64,000 nucleotides of DNA, taken from positions 1 to 64,000 of IMG/VR virus record IMGVR_UViG_3300031772_002739; one strand, 5' to 3'. The DNA is from a virus. The notes under the pieces were generated by a model. That model was not told the DNA's origin, ran no database searches, and worked only from the letters and a program-made list of their open reading frames with translations. The position numbers were made by a program, and so were the translations under genes. This document shows positions 7,722 to 61,887 of the stretch, piece after piece (the first letter of the stretch is position 1; every line of letters begins with the position of its first letter).

Positions 7722-9236
7722 ATGACAGAAAGAGGAAAAAAATTACGCGAAACGTTTCTTAAAAAATATGGAGTAGAACACCCATCTCAACTTCTTTCGG
7801 TAAAGGAAAAAATAAAAAAGAAAAGGGAAGATGGTGCATATAACGATATGATTGTTAATATGAAAAAAACCTTATTGGAAAAATATGGAGATGAAAATTA
7901 TAATAATTTAGAGGAAGGCAAAAAAACAAAATTAAAAAAATATGGAGATGAAAATTATAATAATAGAGAAAAAATGGTAAAAACAAATCAAGAAAGATAC
8001 GGAATGAATGTTTCTCCAAATGTAATAAAAAGTACAACAGAAAGGTCAAAATCAGGTGAAATAGGATTTAATTCCGAAAAATATATATCGTTTCTTAAAA
8101 ATAATAATGTTAAAAATATATCTCAATTAACATCTGTAAAAAATAAGAAAAAAGAAAATCAAATAAAATTATACCTTAAAAAATTATTTTCCGGTAACAG
8201 ATTAAAGGGTATGGTGAAACCAACATTTTCTGAAAATGAATATAAAGGCGCCAAATATGATACTCTTTATAAATTTGAATGTTGTAAGTGTGGAAATATA
8301 TTTGAAGATACCTTATATTCAGGTAATATACCAAGATGTTTGATTTGTTATCCATACGACCAATTTAAATCTAAAATAGAGTTAGATATTATTGATTTTC
8401 TAAAATCGGCCGGTTTACAATATAAACAACATGATAGGTCTATTTTGAACGGAGAAGAAATAGACATATTGATAAATGATAAAAATATAGGGATTGAATG
8501 TGATGGTGTAATATGGCATAGCGAATTATTTGGAAAAAAAGACAAACAATATCATTTAAACAAATCAAAATTGGCTGAAAATAAAGGCATATCACTTATG
8601 CATATATGGGATTGGGAATGGTTGAATAAAAAAGATTTGATAAAAAGTATAATATTGAATAAAGTAAATAAATCTGAAAAAATACACGCAAGAAAATGTG
8701 AAATAAAAGAAATAACAAATACACAAAAAATCAAGTTTGTAGAGTTAAATCATATACAGGGAGATGATACATCATCTATACGCATCGGCTTGTTTTTTAA
8801 TAATGTATTGGTGTCTGTTATGACCTTCGTAAAATCACGATATGATAAGAATTATGAATATGAGATGTCAAGATATTGTAATAAAATCAATACAAGTGTT
8901 GTTGGTGGCGCATCAAAATTATTAAATTATTTCATAACTGTATATAATCCAAAATCAATTGTGTCATATTGTGATAAAAGATTTTTTAATGGTAAAGTTT
9001 ATGTTAATATAGGAATGAAATTCATTGGTGATACACCACCAAATTATTATTATTTTAATAAGAATAATTGTGTACCTATAAGTAGAATCAAGTTTCAGAA
9101 ACATAAACTTAACAACATTTTGAAATCGTTCGACCCATCACTAACGGAGTGGGAAAATATGCAACTTAATGGATATGATAGGATTTGGGATTGTGGAAAT
9201 TTAAAATATATTTGGGAAAACACTATATTACCATAA
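7722..9236 (+). CDS. Homing endonuclease, Vsr-like nuclease domain with KYG repeats
   Basis: A 504-residue protein that reads as a phage mobile endonuclease. Residues ~10-110 hold several KYG(V/D)E(H/N) repeats, a DNA-binding-type repeat common in such proteins. A 27-base stretch encoding one of these repeats occurs twice, identically, 57 bases apart (7881 and 7938). Residues ~186-210 form a four-cysteine zinc ribbon (CCKCGNIF ... CLIC). Residues ~230-290 resemble a Vsr/EDxHD nuclease: EEIDILINDKNIGIECDG followed by WH. The C-terminal half (HARKCEIKEI ... GGASKLLNYF ... FNGKVYVNIGMKF) aligns by eye with the minus-strand gene at 11343-12854. AGGAG precedes the ATG. It interrupts the usual sheath-tube gene order. 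Confidence 0.75.
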   Translation: MTERGKKLRETFLKKYGVEHPSQLLSVKEKIKKKREDGAYNDMIVNMKKTLLEKYGDENYNNLEEGKKTKLKKYGDENYNNREKMVKTNQERYGMNVSPNVIKSTTERSKSGEIGFNSEKYISFLKNNNVKNISQLTSVKNKKKENQIKLYLKKLFSGNRLKGMVKPTFSENEYKGAKYDTLYKFECCKCGNIFEDTLYSGNIPRCLICYPYDQFKSKIELDIIDFLKSAGLQYKQHDRSILNGEEIDILINDKNIGIECDGVIWHSELFGKKDKQYHLNKSKLAENKGISLMHIWDWEWLNKKDLIKSIILNKVNKSEKIHARKCEIKEITNTQKIKFVELNHIQGDDTSSIRIGLFFNNVLVSVMTFVKSRYDKNYEYEMSRYCNKINTSVVGGASKLLNYFITVYNPKSIVSYCDKRFFNGKVYVNIGMKFIGDTPPNYYYFNKNNCVPISRIKFQKHKLNNILKSFDPSLTEWENMQLNGYDRIWDCGNLKYIWENTILP

Positions 9237-9288
9237 ACAAATTTACATATTGACCGCCAAAAAATCACATCCTTGTACTGGAAAAATC

Positions 9289-9296
9289 TATTTATA
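9289..9296 (+). promoter_or_regulatory. Candidate late-promoter motif (CTATTTATA)
   Basis: TATTTATA 6 bases before the ATG at 9303; if it is a -10-like element the transcript would have almost no leader. Confidence 0.25.
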
Positions 9297-9302
9297 TCCA
9301 GT

Positions 9303-9509
9303 ATGAAAACAAAGTCGAAAAAATGTGAATCACCTTTCATTCCTTATGATGATAATAGTTTAGAGCATAATAAAAATTGTCCGGATTACGGACAAACTTG
9401 GAGGATAACACAATCTGCTTGGTTAGAATCTGATTCTATTGAATATTCAGAATTTGTTGAGGATATAAAGAATAAAATATTGGGGAATAATATAAAATTA
9501 CCTAGATAA
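9303..9509 (+). CDS. Small hypothetical protein
   Basis: A 68-residue hydrophilic protein starting at ATG 9303 (an in-frame TTG at 9273 is less likely). It contains two cysteines (KKCESPF, KNCPDYG) and an acidic C-terminal helix (EYSEFVEDIKNKI). It is not recognised. It lies between the first homing endonuclease and the 10-bp tandem repeat, inside the cassette that separates sheath and tube genes. Confidence 0.4.
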   Translation: MKTKSKKCESPFIPYDDNSLEHNKNCPDYGQTWRITQSAWLESDSIEYSEFVEDIKNKILGNNIKLPR

Positions 9510-9520
9510 TCTGTACAGTA

Positions 9521-9570
9521 CTGCTTAGTACTGCTTAGTACTGCTTAGTACTGCTTAGTACTGCTTAGTA
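9521..9570 (+). repeat. Tandem repeat, 5 perfect copies of a 10-bp unit
   Basis: CTGCTTAGTA is repeated five times without mismatch, with a partial copy (GTA) before it. Each junction creates the palindrome AGTACT, so the array presents an AGTACT site every 10 bp, about one helical turn. It is in non-coding DNA and followed by an AT-rich stretch. The 9510-9721 interval otherwise contains no gene I can support. Confidence 0.9.
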
Positions 9571-9702
9571 CTTTAAATATTTATTTATAAAGAGCTAATC
9601 GCTTCAAAATCGCTACGGTAAGATAACCTACGCTCCTTTTTCGCTCCCGCTCAAAAGTACAACAATAAAATAATTTGTCAAGATATTTTAAAATATCAAC
9701 GA

Positions 9703-9710
9703 TATTTATA
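9703..9710 (+). promoter_or_regulatory. Candidate late-promoter motif GATATTTATA
   Basis: GATATTTATATTAGG 11 bases before the ATG of the HAD gene. AGGA directly follows and can serve as ribosome-binding site. Confidence 0.4.
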
Positions 9711-9721
9711 TTAGGAAACTT

Positions 9722-10228
9722 ATGCAATCTGATCATAATAGGACAGTGTACGTTGATATGGATGGAGTCGTTTCTGATTTTAGTTCACATTTTCAACATA
9801 TCACAGGAACGACCACAGGTCAACAATGGGATGACAACGAACTGTGGGCGAGGATCAACGCACACGGAAAAGAAAAGTTTTTTGCGGAAATGCCTTGGGT
9901 TCCTGGGTCAAAAGAAATGTGGAACTTCATAACTGACAACTTTTTGAATGTAAAAATATTGAGTGCTCTTGGAAGGAGCGATAAAGTTGATGGTGGTAAA
10001 ACTGCAAAAGGAAAGTTGGCTTGGTTGAGAAAAACCATACCATCATTGAAAGAAACGGATATTTTACTCGTTCCTAACAAACATGCTAAAAAACATTATG
10101 CTAAACCTAGTGATATATTAATCGATGACACCGAAGGTAATATTAAAGACTGGGAAAGTAAAGGCGGTATAGGAATACTTTTTAAAACTCCAAAAGATAC
10201 AATAATAAAATTGAGAGAATATGTATGA
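9722..10228 (+). CDS. HAD-superfamily phosphatase, 5'(3')-deoxyribonucleotidase-like
   Basis: A 168-residue HAD-fold hydrolase. Motif I is VDMDGVVSD (residues 11-19, nucleophile D12 and acid D14). Motif II falls at ILSALGR (residues ~79-85). Motif IV is ILIDDTEGNIKDW near residue 137. The cap is small, and the overall pattern resembles 5'(3')-deoxyribonucleotidases found in phages, which dephosphorylate dNMPs. Its stop overlaps the next gene's start (ATGA), so the two are coupled. A nucleotidase role would fit phage nucleotide metabolism, but substrate is inferred. Confidence 0.7.
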   Translation: MQSDHNRTVYVDMDGVVSDFSSHFQHITGTTTGQQWDDNELWARINAHGKEKFFAEMPWVPGSKEMWNFITDNFLNVKILSALGRSDKVDGGKTAKGKLAWLRKTIPSLKETDILLVPNKHAKKHYAKPSDILIDDTEGNIKDWESKGGIGILFKTPKDTIIKLREYV

Positions 10229-10689
10229 ATAAAAAAACAGAATTAAAAAACACAATTAAACAACTTATTAAAGAGATTCTAAGTGAACAATCATATAAAG
10301 TTGGCGGAAGATCTTACCGAACATTTCAAGATTCTCCACAAGTGACACAAAATCACGATCCGGAAGTTACTGAAAACGGAAACTACGAAGAAGCAGATGA
10401 ACTTCAAATTATCAAAAATATGGCTAGTATAGTTGAAAAGGTCAAAACGAAAACCGATAATCATTTTGAGTTGGTAAAAGCTATTAAACAGATTGAAGAA
10501 CTTGTTGATTCTCTTTTGGATTTACATAAATCTCTTCCAATGTTCAAATCAGGAGAAGTAGCAGAAGTGGCTCCTCCTGGATGGGAAAAGACGGTTAAGG
10601 GTATGAAGAAACATAAAGGTGATATAGAAAATCCCTGGGCATTAGCATGGTCTATGAAAAATAAAGGAGACAAACCAAGTAAATCATAA
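10225..10689 (+). CDS. Tagged small virion-type protein (capsid-targeting-like N-terminus)
   Basis: A 154-residue hydrophilic protein of unknown function. The N-terminus is a Lys/Leu/Ile amphipathic helix ending KEILSE-Q, resembling the MIKLKNILxE tags at 13.7-17.1 kb and containing an L-S-E site of the type cut by T4-type prohead protease. The middle is a helical region (residues ~55-110). The C-terminus has a compact signature, PPGWEKTVKGMKKHKG then NPWALAWSMK, which I have the impression recurs in phage proteins but cannot name. It overlaps the HAD gene by 4 bases and abuts the next start. Confidence 0.5.
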   Translation: MNKKTELKNTIKQLIKEILSEQSYKVGGRSYRTFQDSPQVTQNHDPEVTENGNYEEADELQIIKNMASIVEKVKTKTDNHFELVKAIKQIEELVDSLLDLHKSLPMFKSGEVAEVAPPGWEKTVKGMKKHKGDIENPWALAWSMKNKGDKPSKS

Positions 10690-11385
10690 ATGAAACTTCG
10701 GGTCTACAATGATACGTTAAATCCAGACCTTTGGGATGAGAATAAAAAACTTAAACCTGAGATTGGTAGTGTATTGTCAAAAGTATCTACGGACTTCTAT
10801 AAATCAACCGAATTGAGGGGAGAAATTATAGACATTTTATTTTTAGGATCGTCAGCTAATTATAATTGGAACCCCAATAGTGATATAGACCTTCATATAC
10901 TTATTGATGTCACTCAGGAAAAGATGCATCCAACTCATACTCGAAAGTTTTTAGATGTGTTGGCGTTCAAGTGGAATACTCAACATGATATACGGATTCG
11001 GGGAAATAAAGTTGAGGTATACATACAAGATATAGGAGAAACCAACAATTCTATCGGAATATATTCATTAATGAACAATGCTTGGTTAAGAGAACCATCA
11101 AAAGAACACGTTGAGTTGGATAAAGAACAGATTAAACGAAAATTTAAAATTCTCAAACATAAAATCAATCAGATAATAGAAACCGAAGATCCTGAAAAAT
11201 TGAAGGGTGTAATGAAAGATATACGGAATTTTAGACAATCAGGATTGGATAAAACTGGAGAATTTAGTACGGAAAATGTGGTATTCAAAGCTTTAAGACA
11301 CTCGGGATTGTTGACAAAGTTGAAGGATTCCATCAACAATTTTTATGATAAACAGGTTTCTATTAAAGATGATATATCCGTGTGA
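10690..11385 (+). CDS. Pol-beta-superfamily nucleotidyltransferase
   Basis: A 231-residue protein with the nucleotidyltransferase signature LGSSANYNWNPNSDIDLHI (about residues 53-71), that is, GS followed by a D-x-D metal-binding pair, and a third acidic strand at KVEVYIQD. The C-terminal half is helical (EQIKRKFKILKHKINQII) as in MNT/HEPN-like or minimal NTases. It begins immediately after the preceding stop. The last 43 bases overlap tail-to-tail with the minus-strand homing endonuclease, so its C-terminus may have been altered by that insertion. Target (nucleotide, tRNA or protein) is unknown. Confidence 0.65.
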   Translation: MKLRVYNDTLNPDLWDENKKLKPEIGSVLSKVSTDFYKSTELRGEIIDILFLGSSANYNWNPNSDIDLHILIDVTQEKMHPTHTRKFLDVLAFKWNTQHDIRIRGNKVEVYIQDIGETNNSIGIYSLMNNAWLREPSKEHVELDKEQIKRKFKILKHKINQIIETEDPEKLKGVMKDIRNFRQSGLDKTGEFSTENVVFKALRHSGLLTKLKDSINNFYDKQVSIKDDISV

Positions 11386-12854
11386 TTATTACTCCAAATC
11401 CATTTGGTGTGACCACAATCCCAAATTCTATCAAACCCGTTGTTTTTCATATTTTCCCATTCTGATAATGAATCGTCATATTTCGGTAATATGAATTTTA
11501 GTTTGTGTTTTTGAAATGACATTCGATTTTTAACACCTTTATATTTATCAGTAATATAATAATAATTTGGTACTGTGTTTCTATCAAATTTCATCCCCAT
11601 ATTAATATAGACATTTCCGTTAAAATATCTACGATCACTATAACTAACAATAGATTTTGGATTGTGAGTTTTTACAAAATGTTGAAATAATTTGCTTGCA
11701 CCTCCAATGGTGGTATAATTAAGTTTATTACAAAAACGTGAAATTTCCCACTCTACGGTTTTGTCAAATCTTGATGTTTTTCTAAATGTCATTACGGATA
11801 CTAATTCATTGTCATGGTATAATCCCAATTTTATTGTTGATTTATCTTCACCTTGAATATGAGATTTATTTAAAAATGTATTTTTGTCTTTAGTGGATAT
11901 TGTTCTTATTTCACATGTTCTAGCAAAAATTTTGTTTGGTCGATATCCAAGTATAGAATTTATGATCGATTTTACAATTTCTGTTTTTTCAATCCATTCG
12001 TTTTCTAAAATATGAATTAATCTTACTCCATGAAACAAACAATTATTGGTTTTATTAAGATGATAATTTTTTTGAATTCCTCCACCTACGTTGCTGTGCC
12101 AATAAAGACCATTTATTTCAAATGCAATTTTTTTGAATGGTATATAAAAATCTAATTCTTTTCCATTTAAAATAACACGATCACGTCTTTTAATTTCTAT
12201 ATTTTTTGGAACTATAGACGACAAGAATTCAAAGAAAGAACGTTCTAATTCAAGTCTACGATCAGGATGACATTTATTACAGTAAATGTTAGAAAGATGA
12301 TATACTGAATGTTCAAATTCATTACCACATATATCGCATTTAAACTTATACAAATTTTTAAAATGATATCCTATATATTCGTTTCTTTCAGATAAAAAAG
12401 TAATATTCCATTCTTTACATAGATTTTTAATATATTTATAATGTCGATCCATTATTTGTTCGTTTACTTTTTGTATAACATCTGTAGTATTACGAATATT
12501 ATTTACTCCATATCGGTTTAAACATGTTTGTTTTATTTGTTCATAGTTGTTATAATTTTCGTTTCCATAACGTTTCTTTTTAGTATTTTTACTTTTTTCT
12601 ATGAATTTTTTTGATTGTAAAGCATGTTCGACACCATGTTTATTCATCATTGATTTTTTAAAATTTTCTACAACATTCTGTGTTTTCATGGGATGATCAG
12701 TTCCATAATTTTTTTGATAAGTAGATTTTTGACTTTTTTTCATTTTATCAATGACTTCTGGATTGTGTTGAGCACATGTTTTAGAACATGAAACTTGATT
12801 GTTTCGTTTGGTTCTAAATTCATTTTTACAAGTTGGACAAATTTTTAATATCAT
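11343..12854 (-). CDS. Homing endonuclease, Vsr-like (second, minus-strand copy)
   Basis: About 503 residues from ATG 12854 (a TTG at 12869 gives 508). It has an N-terminal zinc-ribbon-like CPTCKNEF ... CSKTC, several Y/H-G-(V/T/N)-(E/D/N)H repeats (KNYGTDHP, NKHGVEHA), a second ribbon CDICGNEF ... CNKC, and the nuclease core DRVILNGKELDFYIPFKKIAFEINGLYWHS. The C-terminus (GGASKLFQHF ... FNGNVYINMGMKF ... WDCGHTKWIW) parallels the plus-strand copy at 7722. It is driven by a consensus promoter of its own. It lies antisense to its neighbours and overlaps the nucleotidyltransferase gene end. Confidence 0.75.
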   Translation of the reverse strand: MILKICPTCKNEFRTKRNNQVSCSKTCAQHNPEVIDKMKKSQKSTYQKNYGTDHPMKTQNVVENFKKSMMNKHGVEHALQSKKFIEKSKNTKKKRYGNENYNNYEQIKQTCLNRYGVNNIRNTTDVIQKVNEQIMDRHYKYIKNLCKEWNITFLSERNEYIGYHFKNLYKFKCDICGNEFEHSVYHLSNIYCNKCHPDRRLELERSFFEFLSSIVPKNIEIKRRDRVILNGKELDFYIPFKKIAFEINGLYWHSNVGGGIQKNYHLNKTNNCLFHGVRLIHILENEWIEKTEIVKSIINSILGYRPNKIFARTCEIRTISTKDKNTFLNKSHIQGEDKSTIKLGLYHDNELVSVMTFRKTSRFDKTVEWEISRFCNKLNYTTIGGASKLFQHFVKTHNPKSIVSYSDRRYFNGNVYINMGMKFDRNTVPNYYYITDKYKGVKNRMSFQKHKLKFILPKYDDSLSEWENMKNNGFDRIWDCGHTKWIWSNNHTDISSLIETCLS

Positions 12855-12881
12855 ATGTTTATAGTTCAAATGTCGTTAATA

Positions 12882-13623: not shown

Positions 13624-13631
13624 TATTTATA
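13624..13631 (+). promoter_or_regulatory. Candidate late-promoter motif before tagged tandem family
   Basis: TGATATTTATAAATGG, 29 bases before ATG 13661, with a second variant TATTTATT at 13646-13653. No clear ribosome-binding site precedes the ATG. Confidence 0.35.
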
Positions 13632-13660: not shown

Positions 13661-14467
13661 ATGATAAAATTAAAAGACATATTACAAGAAGCCTGTGAAA
13701 AAGCTCTTGCAAGAACGGTGCCTATAACTAAAGAAAATTTTGATCGTATGTTGCCGTCGTGTAGTGATGCGGTGGATGCAAATAAACAAGGATACGTAAT
13801 TTATAGAGGATTAGAAAAAATCATACCATCCTTATACGCATCGGTGAACCCAAGTGAATATTATAGGTATTCAATGAATACAACAAATTTTTATACCGCA
13901 CTCATAGACGTATTACCTTCTTGGGTTGATTATCCAAAACGAAGTCGTAGTATTATATGTTCTACATCGATGGGATCTGCTGGATGCTTCGGTAACACTA
14001 TATATCAAGTATTCCCCCAAAATGGAGCGTCAATAGGTATATGTCCGAAATCAGATTTTTGGGGTTCTTTTAAAATAGTTAAAAATAGATTAAAATATGC
14101 TAAGGATATGGATTTATTCAATTACTGTATGGAAAGTTTTATTAGACATGTTTTAAACATAAAATTTTCTTCATCCGATCTTACGCCGTCGGGCATCATT
14201 AACATACTTAAACAAATGGATGACGTTATGAATAATAAAAAAGATGAAATATACACAGCAGATGAATACGATGAGAATATATGGAATGACGTTAAACAAA
14301 GGTGGAAAGTTTCCTGGATGCATTATTTTGATGAATTATTGGATCCAGAAAATAATGAATTTATGGTGATGCCAATTAAAAATTTTAATGTTACAGAAAA
14401 AAATGTATCAGGAAGAGAAGTGTGGACAGATGCTTATTCGTTGTTGAAAGTTGATGAAAGTCGATGA
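13661..14467 (+). CDS. Tagged ADP-ribosyltransferase-like protein, paralogue 1
   Basis: 268 residues; first of four tandem paralogues. Residues 1-11 (MIKLKDILQEA) form an amphipathic tag with an L-Q-E-A site like those cut by T4-type prohead protease. Shared family features: YRG near residue 48-50, PKRSRSIICSTS at residues ~92-103, a G-x-x-x-x-VF strand soon after, and a C-terminal (R/E)E-x-W-T/S-D motif (REVWTD, E253). The order R, S-T-S, E with this spacing resembles the R-S-E class of ADP-ribosyltransferases, enzymes T4 also packages and injects (Alt). The strict E-x-E of that class is not present, so the enzymatic call is an inference. It differs from the others in its shorter tail and its gap to the next gene. 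Confidence 0.45.
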   Translation: MIKLKDILQEACEKALARTVPITKENFDRMLPSCSDAVDANKQGYVIYRGLEKIIPSLYASVNPSEYYRYSMNTTNFYTALIDVLPSWVDYPKRSRSIICSTSMGSAGCFGNTIYQVFPQNGASIGICPKSDFWGSFKIVKNRLKYAKDMDLFNYCMESFIRHVLNIKFSSSDLTPSGIINILKQMDDVMNNKKDEIYTADEYDENIWNDVKQRWKVSWMHYFDELLDPENNEFMVMPIKNFNVTEKNVSGREVWTDAYSLLKVDESR

Positions 14468-14519
14468 ATCAACGTTGATGTAAATTCGGTTGAACCACCA
14501 TATCGTTAATAAAAATAGT

Positions 14520-15413
14520 ATGATCAAGTTGAAAAATATATTAGAAACATCTCAACCTTATAGTAAGAACATATCCGAATTAAGTGTTGGAATGGCTTCC
14601 TTACATGCGAATACAACTTTTAAAAACTCTTTTGATTTATATAAACAAGATTCAAGAGTTTTGTATAGAGGAATAAGTGATAAATATCGTGGAAATTATT
14701 ATTATGTGAATCCTCGGACCGCGGCTAGAATATCAAAAGACAGTAATAATCTTTATGTAGCTTTGATGGATGCGTTACCTTCATGGAACGGATATCCGAA
14801 ACGAAGTAGAAGTATTATTGTGGGAACGTCGGAATCTGTGGCTGAAGATTACGGAGATATATTTTTAGTATTTTTAAAATATAACGCTAACGTGGCTGTT
14901 TGTTCAGAAGACGATTTATGGAAAGGCATGCCTTATTTAATGAGAAAAACTAACGTCAACGGGTTAGATACTTATATGATGGGTTTAAATGAGTTGTTGA
15001 TGAGTGTTAGTAGATATGATGATAAAATACCTGATATAGAAACTAAAACTTATTCGGAAAACAACATAGAAGAATTTTTTCAAGGTATGATATATCTTAC
15101 AAAGGAAGTGTTAGAAAAGTCTATTAGTGATAGACTGGTTTGGAGCGCCGCCGCAAGGATATCGAAAAATATGCTTTTAAGTTCTTCCGATGCAAAAAAT
15201 GGTTGGAGGAATTATTTTAATGATCTTTTTGATCCTGTTAATAATGGAATATCGTTATCATCTGTATCAGAACTTCCATATGATGAAAAACATGAATGTT
15301 GGTCAGATAGTGATGCATTGTTGGTAAAGGATGAAGATCAAGCGGTAAGAATTTTATACAAATACAAACCGCCCGATCCTAATCAACAGACTTTAGATTT
15401 TGGAAATGTATGA
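14520..15413 (+). CDS. Tagged ADP-ribosyltransferase-like protein, paralogue 2
   Basis: 297 residues from ATG 14520, chosen over an in-frame TTG at 14490 because it restores the conserved MIKLKNILE start. Family marks: VLYRG (R50), YPKRSRSIIVGTSES, YGDIFLVF, then GWRNYFNDLFDP and HECWSD (E259). It has a longer C-terminal tail than its sisters (KYKPPDPNQQTLDF). The stop overlaps the next ATG (ATGA). Its tag lacks a clean L-x-E before residue 11 (ILET), but an I-S-E is present near residue 20. Function as for paralogue 1 is inferred. Confidence 0.45.
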   Translation: MIKLKNILETSQPYSKNISELSVGMASLHANTTFKNSFDLYKQDSRVLYRGISDKYRGNYYYVNPRTAARISKDSNNLYVALMDALPSWNGYPKRSRSIIVGTSESVAEDYGDIFLVFLKYNANVAVCSEDDLWKGMPYLMRKTNVNGLDTYMMGLNELLMSVSRYDDKIPDIETKTYSENNIEEFFQGMIYLTKEVLEKSISDRLVWSAAARISKNMLLSSSDAKNGWRNYFNDLFDPVNNGISLSSVSELPYDEKHECWSDSDALLVKDEDQAVRILYKYKPPDPNQQTLDFGNV

Positions 15414-16264
15414 TCAAGTTAAAAAACATAGTCGAAGAATTTTTGAGATCGTCACCGGAGGGAGAAAGACGTAGGACGATTGATTTAGATCAAGCTGTTT
15501 CTTTGGCAAAAGATTATAGTGAATCGATAGAGATAGGCGGTAAAGGCCGGTTGTATAGGGGGGTAAGAGGCGCCGATCAACGTTATTATTATATAGATCC
15601 GTCCAGTTCACCAATGAGATATTCAAGAGATGTAAACAACATTTACATGGCTCTTATGGATACTTTACCGGCGTGGAGTGGATTTCCAAAAAGAAGTCAT
15701 AGTATTATAGTTTCTACAGATTATACAGATGCTAATAGCTATGGTGCTTTGTATGTAGTGTTTTTGAAAAATGAATCGAAAATAGCTTCTGCTAGTTCCA
15801 AAGATATTATTTCGTATGCGGGAATGCCATATCTTTATGATAGACTGAACGTGGATTTAGAAGGTTATATGTATAGATTGGAAAAACTGTTTAACACTGG
15901 AAAAGAGTTAGGATGGTATATGCCTACGACAGGAAAACATGATTATACCTACAAAAATATAGAAGATTTTTACAACGAAATGAGCGATTTAACTGTGGAA
16001 CGGTTGAAAATTCTTCAAACTAAGTTTCAGAACTACGTTAAGATAACTAATGTGATAGATGATATGTTGAAACATCCTGATCCAGAAAACGGATGGAAAA
16101 ATTATTTTAATGAATTATTAAGTCCAACAAAAAATGGTATAACTTTAGAAACGATATCATCTATAAAATACAATGATGGTAGAGAATGTTGGACAGAATT
16201 TCCTGCTATACTTGTCAGACAAACTTTTTTGGGTGGATTTATTGATGCTTATAATAATGTATGA
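15410..16264 (+). CDS. Tagged ADP-ribosyltransferase-like protein, paralogue 3
   Basis: 284 residues beginning MIKLKNIVEEF. Family marks: LYRGVRG, PKRSHSIIVST, YGALYVVF, GWKNYFNELLSP and RECWTE. The start overlaps the previous stop by ATGA and the same junction sequence (TGTATGATCAAGTTAAAAAA) begins the next gene, so the tandem array shares DNA-level junctions. A strand YYYIDPSSS after the YRG corresponds to the conserved Y-x-(V/D/L)-(N/D)P of the other copies. No membrane segments. Function inferred only. Confidence 0.45.
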   Translation: MIKLKNIVEEFLRSSPEGERRRTIDLDQAVSLAKDYSESIEIGGKGRLYRGVRGADQRYYYIDPSSSPMRYSRDVNNIYMALMDTLPAWSGFPKRSHSIIVSTDYTDANSYGALYVVFLKNESKIASASSKDIISYAGMPYLYDRLNVDLEGYMYRLEKLFNTGKELGWYMPTTGKHDYTYKNIEDFYNEMSDLTVERLKILQTKFQNYVKITNVIDDMLKHPDPENGWKNYFNELLSPTKNGITLETISSIKYNDGRECWTEFPAILVRQTFLGGFIDAYNNV

Positions 16265-17097
16265 TCAAGTTAAAAAATATATTGAATGAAATCAGAAGGG
16301 TGCCTGTTAATATAAACAGCTCTTTAGCTTTTATGAGATCCAAATGTTCTTTAGCCGTTGGTCACGCTAGAGAGGGAAGAGTTGTTTATCGTGGTGTTGA
16401 GACTGCCACAAAACCAGCATATTATCTAGATCCTTCAAAAGAGTCGAGGACATCGAAAGATACTAACAATCTTTATCAGGCTATAATGGCTACGTCTCCA
16501 AATTGGGATGGGTATCCAAATAGAGAACAGAGTGTTATGTTTTCACCGATGAAAAGCACAGCAGATGAATACGGAGAAGCATATTTTGTGTTTGTTCCAG
16601 ATGATGCTAATATAGTTATGACAACATTAAGCCATGGAGATTTTTGGCACTCTATGGATAATATTGAAAAACGAATCACGGCAGACATTCCATCGTTGAT
16701 GAATATTATTAAAGGAATAAGTAACTATTCAAATATAAATCCCGATTTAAATTTTGAATTCCCCAATGTAGTAGAACATGTTTTTACATCATCTGATGTT
16801 AATAAGTTCTACGAGGAAATGAAAAAGTTTACTAAAGAAAAAATTGAATATTTAATTCAAGTTAAAAAACCTTGGCCACATGCTAAACCGTTTTACTTGG
16901 ATATGTTGAAACATTATGATGCCGAAAACGGATGGAGAAACTATTTCAATGATTTGTTTGATCCTCAAAAGAATAAAATAAAGTTGGGTGGAGTTAACGA
17001 CATCCCATATAGAAAAGATGAAGAATGTTGGACGGATTCTCCTGTATTGTTGTTGTCTTGTGGTTTGAATGTAAATAAAATTTTGAACGATTTATAA
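16261..17097 (+). CDS. Tagged ADP-ribosyltransferase-like protein, paralogue 4
   Basis: 278 residues beginning MIKLKNILNEIRR, with a well-formed I-L-N-E site. Family marks: VVYRGVE, the position of PKRS is changed to YPNREQSVMFSP, YGEAYFVF is kept, then GWRNYFNDLFDP and EECWTD. The SII-ST segment, proposed to correspond to the S-T-S of transferases, is altered here to SVMFSP, so this copy may have lost activity or changed substrate. It overlaps paralogue 3 by 4 bases and is followed after 4 bases by the kinase with the same tag. Confidence 0.4.
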   Translation: MIKLKNILNEIRRVPVNINSSLAFMRSKCSLAVGHAREGRVVYRGVETATKPAYYLDPSKESRTSKDTNNLYQAIMATSPNWDGYPNREQSVMFSPMKSTADEYGEAYFVFVPDDANIVMTTLSHGDFWHSMDNIEKRITADIPSLMNIIKGISNYSNINPDLNFEFPNVVEHVFTSSDVNKFYEEMKKFTKEKIEYLIQVKKPWPHAKPFYLDMLKHYDAENGWRNYFNDLFDPQKNKIKLGGVNDIPYRKDEECWTDSPVLLLSCGLNVNKILNDL

Positions 17098-17101
17098 ATG
17101 T

Positions 17102-17842
17102 ATGATTAAATTAAAGAATATATTAGAATCTTTATCAGAACACCCCCTTACCGAAAGTGTGTTTGATAAAGGGTTATTTAAGGCTGTATTTTTTTCAGGC
17201 ATCCCAGGTGCTGGTAAAAGTTATGTCATTAACTCTATTACTGATGGTCAAATCCAACCCCGCATTGTAAACTTTGATAAATATTCAGAGTTTTTGGCTA
17301 AAAAATATAATTTGCCAGACGCTGGCGATCAAGATTTTCCTTTTGTTGATCAGGCAAAAACAATGACGATATCCCAACTTTCTGGATATGTTAATGGGTT
17401 ACTTCCACTTTTTATTGACACCACCAGTAATAAAGCCAATAGAACGATGTTAAGAGATGGAGTATTAAAATCATTTGGGTATGATACGGGAATGGTGTGG
17501 ATTAATACTCCATTGGATGTGGCGTTAGACAGAATCAAACAAAGAGATAGATCGGTCTCAGATGATTTCGTGGTATCTGTTCATCGTTCATTGGAAGAAA
17601 ATATAAAATATTATAAAACTCAGTTTTCATTTTTTATTGAAGTAAAAAACGGCGCAGGAGAATTGACTGATGAAGTTATTAGAGACGCCTATAAAACTGC
17701 TTCATCATTCTTTAGAGAAGACATACAAAATCCAATAGGTAAGAGAAATTATAAAAAGGCTTTTGACACTACAGGATATTTGGTTCCTCACGTTTACAAA
17801 TCGATAAGTGATATAAAAGTGAAATTAAGTAATTGGTATTGA
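17102..17842 (+). CDS. Tagged P-loop kinase (zeta-toxin / polynucleotide-kinase-like)
   Basis: 246 residues. It starts with the same tag as the upstream family (MIKLKNILES) followed by LTESVFDKGLFKAVFF and a Walker A GIPGAGKS at residues 33-40. Further kinase marks: IVNFDKYSEF (acidic residue after strand 2), DTTSNKANRTMLRDG, and a lid-type segment NTPLDVALDRIKQRDR. The architecture resembles AAA_33/zeta-toxin-like small-molecule or nucleic-acid-end kinases. The shared tag and tight spacing put it in the same packaged or co-expressed set as the four paralogues. Substrate is unknown. Confidence 0.6.
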   Translation: MIKLKNILESLSEHPLTESVFDKGLFKAVFFSGIPGAGKSYVINSITDGQIQPRIVNFDKYSEFLAKKYNLPDAGDQDFPFVDQAKTMTISQLSGYVNGLLPLFIDTTSNKANRTMLRDGVLKSFGYDTGMVWINTPLDVALDRIKQRDRSVSDDFVVSVHRSLEENIKYYKTQFSFFIEVKNGAGELTDEVIRDAYKTASSFFREDIQNPIGKRNYKKAFDTTGYLVPHVYKSISDIKVKLSNWY

Positions 17843-17855: not shown

Positions 17856-18788
17856 ATGAAAGTCGTGGGAATTTACAGCGGGAGATTCCAGCCCGCACAT
17901 AGAGGACATTTGGGAGTTTACAACCAACTGAAACAGATTTCAGCTGATGATACTTTTGTGGTGACTTCTGATAAGGTAGAAATTCCTAAATCCCCCCTCA
18001 ACTTTGCCGAAAAACAACAAATATGGGCAAGACATGGTGTTCCATCCTCTCATGTGGTCAAAGTTAAAAATCCATATAATCCTTTAGAATTAGTTCAGGG
18101 GTTTTCCAAAGAAACCGCGGCGCTGGTATATGCCTTGGGGGATCGGGATGCTGAAAGATTTTCTGCTAATAAAAAAGTTGAAAATAATAAAGTAATATGG
18201 ACTAAAAAAGCTGGAGAACCATCATATTTTCAACCATATTTAGGAAATGAGAATAATCTTCAACCACTTGATAAACATGGTTATATCATGATTGTTGGCG
18301 ATGTAAAGATCGATGGGAAACCCATCTCCGGAACAAAAGTAAGAGAAATGTTGGGGTCTAACAAATATAATGATGAACAAAAGAAAACATTTTTTCAATG
18401 GGTTTTTGGGTGGTTTGATATCAGTTTGTTTGATTTATTAAAAGAAAAATTTACCCCGTTTCAAGATGATCAAGTAGAAAAACTCAAAGAAGTTATTGTA
18501 AAAATAGTTAATGAATTAGACGGATCTATAGGAACAATACCCGTTTCTTCTATACCAAGTGGGTTGCCAGCCGGAGATTCGATAGATCCAACTCAAGACG
18601 TGGTTGAAAAAACACCAGAAGAAGAACGTAAGGAACGGGAGTTAGCTCGTAAAAAATATGATGCTGCTGCTAAGAATTTGGAGTTCTTAAGAACCAAAGC
18701 TAAATATATATCCAAGGATAAAGATCAAAATATCAGAGATAGAAAAGATAAAGAAAAAGAAATAAATCTTCTAAAAAAGAGCATATAA
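17856..18788 (+). CDS. Cytidylyltransferase-like protein, NMN adenylyltransferase (NadM/NatV)-like
   Basis: 310 residues. The N-terminal ~165 residues are a nucleotidyl-transferase alpha/beta fold: GIYSGRFQPAHRGHL carries the H-x-G-H active-site motif and ISGTKVREML the downstream I-S-x-T-x-x-R. This pattern is that of NMN or phosphopantetheine adenylyltransferases; phages such as KVP40 carry NMN adenylyltransferases in NAD salvage. The C-terminus is unusual: a linker (residues ~215-255) and a highly charged coiled coil (EEERKERELARKKYDAA ... KEKEINLLKKSI). Location next to ADP-ribosyltransferase-like genes would suit NAD supply, an inference. Confidence 0.6.
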   Translation: MKVVGIYSGRFQPAHRGHLGVYNQLKQISADDTFVVTSDKVEIPKSPLNFAEKQQIWARHGVPSSHVVKVKNPYNPLELVQGFSKETAALVYALGDRDAERFSANKKVENNKVIWTKKAGEPSYFQPYLGNENNLQPLDKHGYIMIVGDVKIDGKPISGTKVREMLGSNKYNDEQKKTFFQWVFGWFDISLFDLLKEKFTPFQDDQVEKLKEVIVKIVNELDGSIGTIPVSSIPSGLPAGDSIDPTQDVVEKTPEEERKERELARKKYDAAAKNLEFLRTKAKYISKDKDQNIRDRKDKEKEINLLKKSI

Positions 18789-41120: not shown

Positions 41121-41948
41121 ATGAATAAAGATTTTTTGAAAAATTTAGTAAAAGAAACACTAACGGAGATGAAAGCTGAGAAGACTGCTGATCGTCCTGC
41201 CAAGAAACAACGAATTAGAGAATCTCTAAAAAGTGTGATCGGTCAAATATTGAAAGAATACATCGCTAGTGTCAATAAACCTAAAAAATCAAAAGACGAC
41301 ATAGAGAAGGAACGAAAGGGATATGCTAAGGATGGTAATGTTCATTTAGATAAAACAAACGAACAGCTCAAGGATGAAATGGAAAAAATATCAAACGATA
41401 TCGATAAGAGCATTGAAGTTAAGTGGGATGACCACGGAGATTTGGTTGTTGATGCTAAAGAATTATTCAAGGTTCGTATTCATCCAATGTGGGATAACAA
41501 TTTTTACATTGAATCGTGGCCAAGATTGCAGGATCGTGTAGTTGCCGTTGGATTGGATTGGGAGCAGGTTAAGAATTTTGTTAAAGCCAATTTCAAACAT
41601 GATAGTGAAGATATTGAAAATACTAAAGTGGACCAAGCTAAGAATAAAGCGATGGATCATCTTGAAGACGAATCTGGCAAGGGAGAAGTTCCAAAACAAG
41701 ATTATGAATCCCGAACAACCATAAAGAAGGTTGGTGACACCAAGAAAGACGATAAGGATTATAACAAACCAGATGTCGAAGATGATGACGATCTTCCTGA
41801 TCAACCAATGAAACCGGTTGATGTAGACGATATCAAAAAACAGAGTGATCATAAAGAGCATAAAGAAGAGCCTCAAAAACACAAGGATGATAAACGTCAT
41901 ATAAAGAAAATGAAGATCGGTAGAGGACGAAAACGTGCTTTGAATTAA
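41121..41948 (+). CDS. Highly charged protein with capsid-targeting-like N-terminus
   Basis: 275 residues, about half Lys/Glu/Asp. Residues 1-16 (NKDFLKNLVKETLTE) and 32-52 (RESLKSVIGQILKEYI) are amphipathic helices with L-T-E and L-K-E sites like the tags at 13.7-17.1 kb. A short globular part lies at residues ~90-160 (VKWDDHGDLVVDAKELFKVRI, IESWPRLQDRVVAVGLDWEQV). The remaining C-terminus is acidic then basic (KKMKIGRGRKRALN). This could be an internal head or scaffold-type protein. CGGAG precedes the ATG. Confidence 0.45.
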   Translation: MNKDFLKNLVKETLTEMKAEKTADRPAKKQRIRESLKSVIGQILKEYIASVNKPKKSKDDIEKERKGYAKDGNVHLDKTNEQLKDEMEKISNDIDKSIEVKWDDHGDLVVDAKELFKVRIHPMWDNNFYIESWPRLQDRVVAVGLDWEQVKNFVKANFKHDSEDIENTKVDQAKNKAMDHLEDESGKGEVPKQDYESRTTIKKVGDTKKDDKDYNKPDVEDDDDLPDQPMKPVDVDDIKKQSDHKEHKEEPQKHKDDKRHIKKMKIGRGRKRALN

Positions 41949-53388: not shown

Positions 53389-53725
53389 ATAATTGAGTGG
53401 TTATTAAATATATCAATAGTGAGAGTATAAACATTACGGGAATAAATATGATATTACTAAATAATAAACACGTTATAATCGATAACCACACATCTAAACA
53501 AATCGGACACGTCACTAATCTAACAAAAAAATTATCGTGTTTCATCCGAAGAAATTGTTGATAAGATATAGTAATATCTTGTTGTTGTTTATATTCTTTA
53601 TATTCTATAATTTTTAATAATTTACAAAGAGTTCTGTTTAGTTGAGTATATTCTATAAACGCATCCGTTTTGAACCATATAATCATCACCATTGATATTA
53701 AACATGTTAATGTAAAAAAAATCAT
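53378..53725 (-). CDS. Small membrane protein with CPIC motif
   Basis: 115 residues, an N-terminal membrane segment (IFFTLTCLISMVMIIWF) and C-terminal hydrophobic segments (residues ~80-110). A TCPICLDVWLS motif sits at the start of the second, resembling CPxC-containing DUF1360-like membrane proteins. It overlaps its neighbours by 4 and 11 bases. Possible role in envelope or glycan processing is contextual. Confidence 0.45.
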   Translation of the reverse strand: MIFFTLTCLISMVMIIWFKTDAFIEYTQLNRTLCKLLKIIEYKEYKQQQDITISYQQFLRMKHDNFFVRLVTCPICLDVWLSIITCLLFSNIIFIPVMFILSLLIYLITTQLYGH

Positions 53726-55056
53726 AAACGAATAAGTTCTATATCTAACGGAGGATTTTTAACAACAACGTTTTCTTCTATAACATTTTGAATTCGATTT
53801 ACTTTGATTTTTATTCCTTCACAGTCGAATTCATCTCCAGGAGTCAATTCGTCTTTATAACTGTGAATAATATCATTCATTTGTTGGAGATATTTGTAAA
53901 GTTCCGGTGTCATAGTATTCATATCTATTTCTAAAACAATATCATCTTCTACAGGTGCATCGGAGAAAATATCTTCTACATTCCATACTCTATAGTATTT
54001 TCCAAATTCTGCCCATTGTTTGTCAGATATATTGAGTATTTCATTTGCAGGATTGTGTAGTTTTTGGTAACGGTCTTTAGCCATCTGACGAGTTTGAGGT
54101 TCATCGATAAATATTTTTTCAAATAAATGATACATACTAAAAATGCCCGTAGCCTGAACAGGCATACAATTTTTGAGATTCACAGATATGTTGTATTTGT
54201 AATTTGTCTGTGGGTCATCTACGGCTTCATGTTTGAACCGTTTCCACTTTCTTAGAAACCTCTGCATCTCAACTTGATCAGCCACAGATTGAAGTTGTGT
54301 TCTTCTTTGATTTTCAGGTTTCCACCATTCCTTTCCACGGGAAGATGTGCAAGTAAAATGATAAACAATAGCCGACCAACATTGTTTCATTTTTAATCCT
54401 TGCAGACAGAATCTATATAATAAATCCGAATCCTCCCTCGATCTTCTAAACAGTGTATCATGACCTCCGATACTCACCCAATTCTTTTTATATAAAGTAA
54501 AAGGAGCGAACCAATAATCTGTGATTCTATCGGTTTTTTTAGACTCAGCAAATCGAGTAAAGACATCTAAATCAAACTTTTGGGGATCTAAGCCAAAATC
54601 GTGAGTAATCTTCTCTGGAGAAGGGGGATGCAATGGAGGTTCAATTCGGGTGGATGATATGATATTGTGTTCATTCAGGTGTTTAAGAACTTCCAAATCA
54701 TATTGATGACATATCACTTGATCTGACTGAAGATAGCTTACAATCTCATGAGTAGCCATTTCAAACATGAGATTTATATTTCGGGCATATCCTAATGGTA
54801 TTGGAAGAGGATTGACAACGATTTTAAGGTTTGGGAAGATTTCTTTTTGAGTTTTTAGAAATCCGACAGTATCTTGATTGTCATTTTCTACGTAAACTAG
54901 AATTTCGTGATCTTTTCGACAAAGATTCTGATTTAACGAGCGGAATAAAAGTTCAACGTGAAAACGTTCATTAATTGAGGTATTTATACAGAAACTAATT
55001 TGTGAAATCATTTTCTTTTTTCGTTCTAATAATGTACCAATTTCGTCATTTTTCAT
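53722..55056 (-). CDS. GT-A glycosyltransferase (family 2-like)
   Basis: 444 residues (start at residue 16, MISQISFCIN, is equally possible). N-terminal GT-A fold: ISFCINTSINERF..., EILVYVENDNQD, PIPLGYARNINLMFEMATHEIVSYLQSDQ, with the D-x-D equivalent region around LQSDQVIC, then ITDYWFAPFTLYKKNWVSIGGHDTLFRRSREDSDLLYRF, the acceptor-helix region. The C-terminal ~100 residues are a helical and charged extension. It presumably adds a sugar to a phage or host glycan. Overlaps the upstream SDR gene by 4 bases. Confidence 0.65.
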   Translation of the reverse strand: MKNDEIGTLLERKKKMISQISFCINTSINERFHVELLFRSLNQNLCRKDHEILVYVENDNQDTVGFLKTQKEIFPNLKIVVNPLPIPLGYARNINLMFEMATHEIVSYLQSDQVICHQYDLEVLKHLNEHNIISSTRIEPPLHPPSPEKITHDFGLDPQKFDLDVFTRFAESKKTDRITDYWFAPFTLYKKNWVSIGGHDTLFRRSREDSDLLYRFCLQGLKMKQCWSAIVYHFTCTSSRGKEWWKPENQRRTQLQSVADQVEMQRFLRKWKRFKHEAVDDPQTNYKYNISVNLKNCMPVQATGIFSMYHLFEKIFIDEPQTRQMAKDRYQKLHNPANEILNISDKQWAEFGKYYRVWNVEDIFSDAPVEDDIVLEIDMNTMTPELYKYLQQMNDIIHSYKDELTPGDEFDCEGIKIKVNRIQNVIEENVVVKNPPLDIELIRL

Positions 55057-55910
55057 ATCATCATGCTTTCATACATTTCAAGTATGCCATTTTCTAATCC
55101 TGTTAGTGGTAAATTGAGTGTTGATAACATCGACCCATTCCCTGTATATGGCATCCCCCACCCGCCAGTTTCTATATGTATTTTTAGATTTGGTTTTCCT
55201 ACTATAAAAGCGATGCTTGTAGCTATATCAGATAATCTATATTTACTCATATAAGATAAATTTAAAGATTTATAGTTATAATCTACGACATTAGATACCG
55301 TCGTCATTATGTATTGTATAACTTTATATACGTCATTTATAAAAAAATAATCCATAAATTTATCTTGATGAATAACCATGTATTCTCCATTGATGGCTCG
55401 TTGTACGTTATTTTTTATTAATCTAAAATTTTCTTCGAGAGGACCAAAACAACCGAATAATCTTAAATTTATAACATTATAAGTTTCTTCATATATTCTT
55501 CTACATATAATATTTTTAGCTAATCCATAAGCATCGATGGGATGTTTCTTGAATATATTTTCTTCACAAACTCTGAGTATTGGAAATCTTCTATCAAATT
55601 CTGCCCCCGATCCGAAAGTAAATAATAACCTATATGATTCTTTGTTGTTTAACAAATTTTCAAACATTAATAGATTAGTTTGAAGGTTTTCGTATGATTC
55701 TGAATCGGTTCTGTTTCCTCCTTTAACAGCGGTATGTATGACTATATCTACTGTGTTTTTCTTAAAAAATTCATCTACTTGATATTTATTAGAAACATCT
55801 AATTCTTGATGAGTAGGAGAATACACGTCATATCCTTCCAGCCTAAACATAGGAGTTAAACTTCGGGCGATAAATCCTTTCCCTCCCGTAATTAAAACAT
55901 CGTAGTGCAT
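55053..55910 (-). CDS. SDR-type NAD-dependent sugar epimerase/dehydratase
   Basis: 285 residues. Rossmann motif ITGGKGFIARSL, IVIHTAVKGGN, and a Y-x-x-x-K (DAYGLAKNII). The acceptor-type FGSGAEFD precedes it. Similar to GDP-L-fucose synthase/RmlD-like short-chain enzymes that modify nucleotide sugars. Contiguous with upstream and downstream genes (start overlaps the stop of the preceding one), so part of the same transcript. Confidence 0.6.
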   Translation of the reverse strand: MHYDVLITGGKGFIARSLTPMFRLEGYDVYSPTHQELDVSNKYQVDEFFKKNTVDIVIHTAVKGGNRTDSESYENLQTNLLMFENLLNNKESYRLLFTFGSGAEFDRRFPILRVCEENIFKKHPIDAYGLAKNIICRRIYEETYNVINLRLFGCFGPLEENFRLIKNNVQRAINGEYMVIHQDKFMDYFFINDVYKVIQYIMTTVSNVVDYNYKSLNLSYMSKYRLSDIATSIAFIVGKPNLKIHIETGGWGMPYTGNGSMLSTLNLPLTGLENGILEMYESMMI

Positions 55911-56386
55911 TATTTTTTAAGATTTAGATATGCTGGTTGTTTATTATACAGAAATGTATCGTAATATGATAATAATGCTCTGTCTGTGTCGGGTTTGTAA
56001 ATTTGTAATCCATTAACACACATACATACATCAACATCCTCCTCCGCCCAGTGTGTGAATCCTAGATATCCATAATCTTTATCCCTACCTCCACCAACAA
56101 GTTTAACCGGAATTTTATCATGACCAAGATAATTTCTGATAAATTCAAATGGACGATAAAGAAGAAATGAGGTGATGGAATAACAGACAACAATTTTACC
56201 TTCCATCGTCATTCCTACAGCCATACCAATCATAAGTTGTTCAGAAGATAAAACATTAAAAAATCTATTAGTATGTGTATTTCGAATTTTATCTAATAAT
56301 CCATATCCTAAATCTCCTGTCAAAACAACTATATTATCATCTTTTTCCATTGTTTTACATAAATAATCAAAAAATAATTTTCTCAT
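55910..56386 (-). CDS. Transketolase-like TPP enzyme, Pyr-domain half
   Basis: 158 residues. The segment LTGDLGYGLLDKI followed by NVLSSEQLMIGMAVGMTMEGKIVVCYSITSFL matches the pyrimidine-binding domain, including the catalytic Glu in SSEQ. It lacks the C-terminal transketolase domain (normally ~100+ residues more). It overlaps its partner (56383-57012) by 4 bases. Together they form a minimal two-gene TPP enzyme. Reaction and substrate unknown; transfer of a two-carbon unit is inferred. Confidence 0.65.
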   Translation of the reverse strand: MRKLFFDYLCKTMEKDDNIVVLTGDLGYGLLDKIRNTHTNRFFNVLSSEQLMIGMAVGMTMEGKIVVCYSITSFLLYRPFEFIRNYLGHDKIPVKLVGGGRDKDYGYLGFTHWAEEDVDVCMCVNGLQIYKPDTDRALLSYYDTFLYNKQPAYLNLKK

Positions 56387-57012
56387 ACTAACATCTCCAA
56401 TGCCTGTTTATAATCTTCTTCTGACATTATTTTGTAATGAGCGTTCAACCCTTTAAGAAATGGAAACGTTTCAACGGAAGTCTTACATATGGCTATTTGT
56501 GGTAAAAATGATACTAATCTAACAGTTAGATAATCAGCATCAATTTCATCATAAGCGGCATATCCGTTTATATTAACATACACATGAATATTTTCAATCT
56601 TGTGATCGTGAATAAATCTTAACGCTTCCCATATACATCCTTCTGCACATTCTCCATCACTTATTAATACATAAACATGACCATTTTTATTGGATAGTGC
56701 TCTACCGACTGCTACTGTTATTCCCATGCCTAAACTTCCAGTTGAACAATAAATTTTATCGTTTTCGTTATAATGTGGATGCCCTCCATGACGAAGAAAC
56801 AATTCTTCGGCGTTAATTCCATCATATTTTTCTAATACAACATATTGAGCCAGAGCGGCGTGCCCACTTGATAGAATAAAAATATCTTCTGGCTGTTTTA
56901 CTCTAAAAATACGATCAATAATATCAACCGAAGAAAAAAAACTCCCTAAATGTCCCAATTTGTGTTTGTATGCAATCTCAACGATTCGTTTTTTAAGATC
57001 TTTATTGTTCAT
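56383..57012 (-). CDS. Transketolase-like TPP enzyme, PP-domain half
   Basis: 209 residues. GHLGSFFSSVDIID (His and start of the active site), LSSGHAALAQYV, GGHPHYNENDKIYCSTGSLGMGI, and the TPP/Mg motif LISDGECAEGCIWEALRFIHDH ... YVNINGY. These match the N-terminal transketolase domain, with GDG changed to SDG. It overlaps the methyltransferase gene upstream by 11 bases and its partner gene by 4 bases. Confidence 0.7.
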   Translation of the reverse strand: MNNKDLKKRIVEIAYKHKLGHLGSFFSSVDIIDRIFRVKQPEDIFILSSGHAALAQYVVLEKYDGINAEELFLRHGGHPHYNENDKIYCSTGSLGMGITVAVGRALSNKNGHVYVLISDGECAEGCIWEALRFIHDHKIENIHVYVNINGYAAYDEIDADYLTVRLVSFLPQIAICKTSVETFPFLKGLNAHYKIMSEEDYKQALEMLV

Positions 57013-57610
57013 GGTTTACTGTGAGTATACCACTTTTACCGCTAGGTTTCAAGATTTTATATTTTTCTAATGATCTAGCTATCCCAGCATTAACATCACC
57101 GTTCCATAAATCATCAAATATTATTATTCCTTTTTTATTACCTATACATAATACAGATAACTCCACGTCTATATCTATATCTTTTTCATGATGAGATCCA
57201 TCGACATAAACAACAGAGATGTTTAGTTTGTTAAGATCGAATAAATCTTTTTCGAGATCGGTTTTGTTATTACCTGAATCTTTAACTTTTTGTAAAAATA
57301 ATTCGGAAACACAATCAAACAATTTTATGTTTGGGCATATAGATATATTGTGAATACAATTTTCTTTTTGAGTAGGTAACGGAGTACCCCTTTCATGATA
57401 GGTATGTCCATCATCAATAAAAGGATCTATCCCGATTACTGTTACGTTTGGGTTGTTTAACGCTATGCTACACATAGTTACTCCATCATACACGCCTATT
57501 TCAAGATAGTTTCCTGGACAAATTTTTAAATAATTCGTTACATCCAACACAATCCCGTGGTGGCTACAAAGTAAAGAATTCCCCTTCAATAATTCAATTG
57601 GATCAGACAT
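57002..57610 (-). CDS. Class I SAM-dependent methyltransferase
   Basis: 202 residues. SAM-binding strand GNYLEIGVYDGVTMCSIA, then VIGIDPFID, VVYVDGSHHEKDIDIDVELS and KGIIIFDDL, the arrangement of small Methyltransf_24-type O-methyltransferases (cephalosporin hydroxylase/rhamnosyl O-methyltransferase-like). In a glycan operon it may O-methylate a sugar. Overlaps its downstream neighbour by 11 bases. Confidence 0.7.
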   Translation of the reverse strand: MSDPIELLKGNSLLCSHHGIVLDVTNYLKICPGNYLEIGVYDGVTMCSIALNNPNVTVIGIDPFIDDGHTYHERGTPLPTQKENCIHNISICPNIKLFDCVSELFLQKVKDSGNNKTDLEKDLFDLNKLNISVVYVDGSHHEKDIDIDVELSVLCIGNKKGIIIFDDLWNGDVNAGIARSLEKYKILKPSGKSGILTVNHEQ

Positions 57611-57615
57611 TTTAT

Positions 57616-57831
57616 TTAAATAACTCTCTTTCTGTTTTTACATTCTTCGCTACAATAATCTTCTGTGGATGGAATGGTGGTTCTACACCATATACAATAA
57701 TCTGTATGTTCGTCTACCCAACGATCAATTAATTTTAATGTTCGTTTTAGATCGTCAATATCTTCTTGTGTTTTTGGGGCAAAAATTTTAATCCGAACAT
57801 CGGATACGTTGTTTTCAAATTCATTTTTCAT
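57616..57831 (-). CDS. Small zinc-ribbon protein
   Basis: 71 residues. Helical N-terminus, then a four-cysteine zinc knuckle YCIWCRTTIPSTEDYCSEECKN (C-x2-C-x11-C-x3-C) at residues ~45-66. Possibly nucleic-acid or protein binding. It sits between the epimerase and methyltransferase genes with gaps of only 4-5 bases. Confidence 0.55.
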   Translation of the reverse strand: MKNEFENNVSDVRIKIFAPKTQEDIDDLKRTLKLIDRWVDEHTDYCIWCRTTIPSTEDYCSEECKNRKRVI

Positions 57832-57835
57832 ACGA

Positions 57836-59711: not shown

Positions 59712-59714
59712 AAC

Positions 59715-61237: not shown

Positions 61238-61239
61238 AA

Positions 61240-61878: not shown

Positions 61879-61887
61879 ATAATAGTG

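Follow-up and report, generated by a model that had tools for sequence, protein, structure and literature searches.

Why should five consecutive genes of a single virus encode proteins that start with almost the same residues, when one of the five is otherwise unrelated to the rest? The genes lie at positions 13,661 to 17,842 of IMG/VR record IMGVR_UViG_3300031772_002739, which comprises 73,465 bases and of which positions 1-64,000 form the stretch of DNA analysed here (the window). The answer that we hold with considerable confidence is that the shared N-terminus serves as a capsid-targeting leader on cargo that is packaged and injected, i.e., as a variant of the internal-protein/Alt system of phage T4. 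The sequence-level basis of this answer consists of the shared leader, selection on the peptide, its reuse on unrelated proteins, a protease-type motif, and the presence, in close relatives, of the matching protease and capsid protein, while docking in the core, cleavage, presence in the virion, injection and host-directed function are the parts that we infer. In the proposed mechanism, the cargo proteins would be made late, the leader would dock them in the prohead's scaffold core, and the S77 prohead protease would cut after [LI]-x-E, with the leader peptide leaving; the mature proteins would stay alongside the DNA inside the head and be injected at infection. The five genes would represent one operon-like cargo island, made up of four diverged copies from a phage-only family and one zeta-toxin/polynucleotide kinase (PNK)-like kinase. 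An earlier note on this DNA had ascribed the tag to capsid targeting, and each prediction of that idea that was examined in sequence was borne out (recurrence of the tag, the protease motif, relatives with S77 and gp23, gp23/gp22 flanks, and the kinase junction).

The array consists of five same-strand open reading frames (ORFs) with the N-terminus MIKLK[DN]I[LV]; the observation that they share this tag, first made in the earlier note, was confirmed for all five ORFs and starts at the coordinates given there. The starts read MIKLKDILQE (13661), MIKLKNILET (14520), MIKLKNIVEE (15410), MIKLKNILNE (16261) and MIKLKNILES (17102), and a gp21-like site of the [LI]-x-E type closes the leader in 5/5 window genes. 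Gene pairs 2/3 and 3/4 overlap at ATGA in an operon-like manner. Since the ORF of 14520 extends to an upstream TTG at 14490, its ATG start is presumed. The features are as follows, a slash marking the predicted cut:

13661..13690, + strand: leader MIKLKDILQE, predicted cut after E10 (LQE/A); motif as in 50 unrelated families
13661..14467, + strand: paralogue 1, 268 residues; phage-only family, N-terminal domain of phrog_12810
14520..14546, + strand: leader MIKLKNILE, predicted cut after E9 (ILE/T)
14520..15413, + strand: paralogue 2, 297 residues; alternative start TTG 14490
15410..15439, + strand: leader MIKLKNIVEE, predicted cut after E9 (IVE/E)
15410..16264, + strand: paralogue 3, 284 residues; start overlaps the preceding stop (ATGA)
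16261..16290, + strand: leader MIKLKNILNE, predicted cut after E10 (LNE/I)
16261..17097, + strand: paralogue 4, 278 residues; start overlaps the preceding stop (ATGA)
17102..17155, + strand: kinase leader MIKLKNILESLSEHPLTE, predicted final cut after E18 (LTE/SVFD)
17102..17842, + strand: P-loop kinase of the zeta-toxin/polynucleotide-kinase kind, 246 residues

A degenerate DNA pattern for tag residues 1-7 matched the 73,465-base record five times, always at the array, whereas its reversed control matched 0 times. Among ORF N-termini of the whole record, 12 pairs were identical in at least 5 of 7 residues; 10 of these fell within the array, and the other two were epimerase-type genes. Alignment showed the four larger array proteins to be paralogues with an overall identity of just 27-28%, yet their leader columns were invariant apart from D/N and L/V. 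Since the tag codons differ synonymously between copies, and do so at most codons, selection acts on the peptide. The same differences bear on the idea that the tag is a translational or regulatory element, i.e., a conserved initiation region, rather than a peptide signal. The tag does always stand directly after the start codon, and the ATGA overlaps suggest translational coupling; however, besides the synonymous codons, internal copies occur at domain boundaries of a 787-residue protein of the relative L012, where initiation is irrelevant, and we regard such a role as very improbable.

The searches that the earlier note had called for placed the tag only at the array in the record and repeatedly on unrelated proteins in relatives. 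Across six related phage stretches, 42/583 ORFs started with MI[KR]L, compared to 0/2,799 internal methionines, and a [LIVF]-x-E-like site followed 38 of the 42 starts. A looser tag pattern gave 58 matches in 14 relatives (8 for the reversed control), and the exact tag was present in more than 119 IMG/VR stretches, a lower bound, and the reversed peptide in 2; exact matches in bacterial and archaeal genomes numbered 21 over 257 Gb. The 83 tagged ORFs among the IMG/VR matches listed fell into at least 50 families without BLAST similarity to each other, including lysozyme, SleB hydrolase, M23 peptidase, NUDIX, exonuclease, ATP-grasp and a zeta-toxin kinase of the window type. Judged by these counts, the recurrence of the tag is due neither to chance nor to paralogy. 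The shared N-terminus could be imagined as a mere remnant of duplication in a paralogue array, with no targeting role, and four of the five genes are indeed true paralogues. That explanation is hardly credible, however, considering that the leader is nearly invariant against the low identity elsewhere, that the kinase is unrelated and the tag occurs on 50 unrelated families, and that distant paralogues in phages Atu_ph07 and LR756508 share different leaders. In a literature search that left most subscription papers outside, MIKLKDIL and MIKLKNIL were found printed nowhere, and such leaders were found described only for T4-like and phiKZ-like phages.

The strongest evidence for the predicted cleavage comes from the kinase at 17102. 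The P-loop (GxPGxGKS) is present, profiles matched 1gvn (3e-6) and T4 PNK (2e-4), and single-sequence Pfam matches stayed below cut-offs; on these grounds the product is a P-loop kinase of the zeta-toxin/PNK kind. Viral relatives of this kinase (80) were gathered by patterns that excluded the site, and the junction was visible in 76. In 76/76 of these homologues the start of the kinase domain was preceded by E. The 50 distinct leaders, 8-22 residues long except for three that comprised an entire upstream domain, had E at P1 in 50/50 and L/I at P3 in 49/50, with P2 free. After the site, the homologues have G at P1' and then an almost invariant kinase start, and the window kinase has HPLTE/SVFD at the equivalent position. 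The motif of the T4 prohead protease gp21 is [LI]-x-E. Because L/I-x-E is kept while its neighbours and the length of the leader are free, the junction is best read as a putative prohead-protease site of the T4 gp21 type. The E might conceivably be conserved by the kinase fold instead; however, L/I-x-E with variable neighbours at variable length looks like a protease site. For SPN3US, the AxE motif has been called reminiscent of the T4 gp21 motif (PMC7411985). Capsid proteins of tag-bearing phages contain QL[VIL]xE/[AVS] in the region of gp23 processing, and their gp22 scaffolds begin with a leader-like xLLKE/A, both sites being assigned from position.

The record contains a T4-type sheath, tube and baseplate hub and is a fragment of a T4-superfamily phage. 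The sheath is 64-67% identical in the closest relatives, which include records of 250,813 and 279,228 bases, plus one identical 12 kb contig, and 58% identical in a further relative of 368,758 bases; the sizes of these records suggest that the window phage is probably a giant phage. Relatives of 250-369 kb encode gp23 and an S77 prohead protease of the T4 type; both were present in the close relatives G042 and G044, and also in G001. Tag-bearing genes of relatives occur in runs of about 4-6 (G042 72646-77452, G043 65585-69689, G044 133893-137928), whose contents vary among relatives, and also directly beside gp23/gp22 (G042 84617-87123, G044 141236-141822). These positions matter for the view that the leader targets another part of the virion (tail, baseplate) or a cell compartment rather than the head. 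In the window, the array is flanked by tail tube and baseplate hub genes, and tagged lysozymes and M23 peptidases would fit the tail too; nevertheless, both the end of the leader and the kinase junction show [LI]xE, the head-protease motif, several arrays adjoin gp23/gp22, and many cargoes are intracellular enzymes, so that a target outside the head seems improbable.

Several observations do weigh against capsid targeting. A virion proteome is not available for this phage. The array adjoins tail genes, not head genes, and the genes for the protease and the capsid protein are both absent from the record, the head genes falling outside the fragment. P1' after the tag is not limited to small residues. 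The prohead protease gene that the earlier note had proposed to look for was found in the 250-369 kb relatives, outside this fragment, and its presence does not discriminate: S77 occurred in 10/21 tag-bearing IMG/VR records and in 10/20 random AT-rich contigs. Co-occurrence with S77 was therefore dropped as proof of packaging, being necessary but not telling. Lastly, virion mass spectrometry of Atu_ph07 detected 29 proteins among coding sequences (CDS) 31-76, the cluster that holds its array, a point in favour of capsid targeting, but the main text does not specify which members of the array were among them (PMC6102473). In GenBank, only four genes of this CDS 31-76 cluster are labelled 'virion structural protein', and the absence of that label from the Atu_ph07 array is thus uninformative.

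What the leader might carry was indicated by the relatives. G044 encodes a leader-bearing Acb1-like 2H phosphoesterase at 136805-137341 (PF23474, 34.5 bits vs. a cut-off of 27), and L012 a leader-bearing Acb1-like homologue with HIT and HMT motifs at 10789-11322; both are candidate pre-packaged enzymes against the cyclic oligonucleotide-based antiphage signalling system (CBASS). PADLOC returned no counter-defence information. Other tagged cargo of relatives includes a GNAT-lysozyme fusion and a protein with a weak, below-cut-off ART-PolyVal match; L012 adds a tRNA nucleotidyltransferase and a protein that reads as a SleB-type hydrolase. Fusions retain the site at the boundary, with EENIKE/APIDTFQTIGDFSKG of G042 matching MIKLKNLIDE/NVIDTLQTIGDFSKG of G043. 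The 787-residue L012 protein (8429-10792) carries the N-terminal tag and two internal copies at domain boundaries (KRIKLSTLIKE, NTIKLKRLLLE), which makes it a candidate for a polyprotein processed by the head protease. Conceivably, the cargo is packaged and processed but fills the core structurally or assists assembly instead of acting on the host; gp21 cuts many of the core proteins of T4, some of them structural, and the paralogues fit no recognised catalytic family. Since relatives carry enzymes as cargo (kinase, NUDIX, Acb1-like phosphoesterase, tRNA nucleotidyltransferase, GNAT), in a set that varies from phage to phage, we consider this unlikely.

The four paralogues belong to a phage-only family in which R, R-x-x-S and E residues are invariant or nearly so. 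The AlphaFold2 (AF2) model of paralogue 2 has residues 1-21 disordered, which counts in favour of a leader, and that of mature paralogue 3 (predicted local distance difference test score 86.7) had no fold match in the PDB with E <= 0.001. Searches against Pfam gave no match to ADP-ribosyltransferases (ART) or another catalytic family. An ART assignment, prompted by the conserved YRG, RSxS and ExW, was not supported, with no Pfam match and no PDB fold match for two models. The significant matches listed by name in a viral-library search were uncharacterised or poorly named phage proteins, several from the Atu_ph07 array, and narrower searches of viral contigs with the paralogue alignment matched only L012 and L259. 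The family profile found no match in 14 tail-sheath relatives; by this measure, the tag is kept in them but the cargo is different. The earlier note had called the kinase otherwise unrelated to the four. This holds for homology, but not functionally: the phrog_12810 profile spans the paralogue domain (about 1-247) and then the kinase domain (258-421), and gp053 of Atu_ph07 is a fusion of the two domains; therefore, paralogues and kinase appear to belong together in function.

Atu_ph07 has ten consecutive paralogues with a common leader, M[RK]WxxLxE, and gp063 (MRLFQLLE) beside them, while paralogue relatives in LR756508 and L259 have yet other leaders. In IMG/VR, the Atu_ph07-type leader was found in only 5 stretches, two of them in one 490,380-base contig. 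A homologous body with a phage-specific leader would be expected from co-evolution with the core and protease of each phage. The internal proteins (IPs) of T4 have been described as diversified against GmrSD enzymes (PMC12373910), and the many diverged paralogue copies in giant phages would fit diversification against varying host targets.

Compared to known systems, the window array most resembles T4 IPI, IPII and IPIII in that an N-terminal leader of ~10 residues is common to unrelated, variable proteins (PMC3012670, PMC9958956, PMC12373910) and closes at a prohead-protease site, with packaging and injection proposed here. It differs from them in its leader (MIKLKxILxE), in larger and largely enzymatic cargo, in the tandem paralogue array, and in a kinase family with the site at the domain boundary even in fusions. 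T4 Alt, a packaged and processed ADP-ribosyltransferase, is likewise a packaged enzyme with a cleaved leader, a state only predicted here; unlike Alt, the four paralogues lack a Pfam ART match and a PDB fold match. The gp053-gp063 array of Atu_ph07 shares with the window the family phrog_12810, consecutive paralogues and a common leader, but has a different leader, more copies and two-domain fusions, the kinase domain being fused in gp053. Phage polyvalent proteins (PMC5512222) are injected cargo of many activities, and the ART-PolyVal-like domain of a relative recalls them; in contrast, the proteins here are mostly single-domain and leader-sorted rather than fused, with fusions in L012 and Atu_ph07. 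The ejection proteins of SPN3US/phiKZ have N-terminal propeptides that are cut from packaged proteins by the prohead protease; however, several of these exceed 100 residues and the motif is AxE (PMC5694885).

In our judgement, the odds are about even for a wider proposal, namely a lineage-specific capsid-sorting code ([leader]-[LI]xE) across uncultured T4-superfamily phages. With a leader specific to each lineage, the head would be filled with numerous preformed enzymes (kinase, Acb1-like anti-CBASS, ADP-ribosyltransferase-like, tRNA-repair, cell-wall) that act before phage gene expression; a leader or cut site retained within a fusion would let the head protease split it into its domains. T4 supplies the precedent for the principle; the novelty lies in the sequence of the leader, in cargo made up of enzymes, in the tandem arrangement, in a processing site found throughout the kinase family, and in how broadly the leaders occur among uncultured phages. 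If the capsid-targeting reading is right, a 10-residue signature would make it possible to read from the sequences of thousands of uncultured phages which proteins they inject, likely immediate counter-defence enzymes among them, and would provide packaging tags for phages beyond T4. The question of what giant T4-type phages inject could be tested directly through re-analysis of existing virion proteomes.

Looser versions of the tag had been reported in the earlier note at 10225, 41121 and 41950. This did not hold, as none has MIKLK; rather, they look like a longer second leader type ending in [IL]xE (M..xxLKxL[VI]Kxx[IL]xE), which stands on unrelated genes at these window positions and at 155554 and 158160 of G044. 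It perhaps marks another class of core or packaged protein, as these few cases weakly suggest. Two of these leaders and a box upstream of the array were as follows:

10225..10689, + strand: possible second-type leader MNKKTELKNTIKQLIKEILSE/Q; weak, with similar leaders in relatives
41121..41948, + strand: possible second-type leader MNKDFLKNLVKETLTE/M; weak
13624..13631, + strand: TATTTATA box, 29 nt 5' of the first array gene; possible array promoter

The window contains 26 TATTTATA sites (11.5 expected), and the box occurs in gene orientation <=60 nt upstream of eight genes: 9722, 13661, 17856, 19981, 39538, 41121, 47146 (minus strand) and 51476. It reads as the reverse complement of the T4 element and is a possible promoter element; the T4 late box TATAAATA preceded no gene in this way.

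Adjoining the kinase, positions 17856-18788 encode an untagged nucleotidyltransferase-like protein with the motifs GRFQPxHxGH and ISGTKVR, and the same neighbourhood of kinase and nucleotidyltransferase-like gene occurs in HTVC008M. A long minus-strand block at 53722-63980, as well as L006, resembles sugar-nucleotide/polysaccharide biosynthesis genes (epimerases, aminotransferases). Two proteins of ~500 residues (7722-9236 and 11343-12869), located between structural genes, resemble homing-type endonucleases; the latter is encoded on the opposite strand, and G042-G044 have similar ones at matching places.

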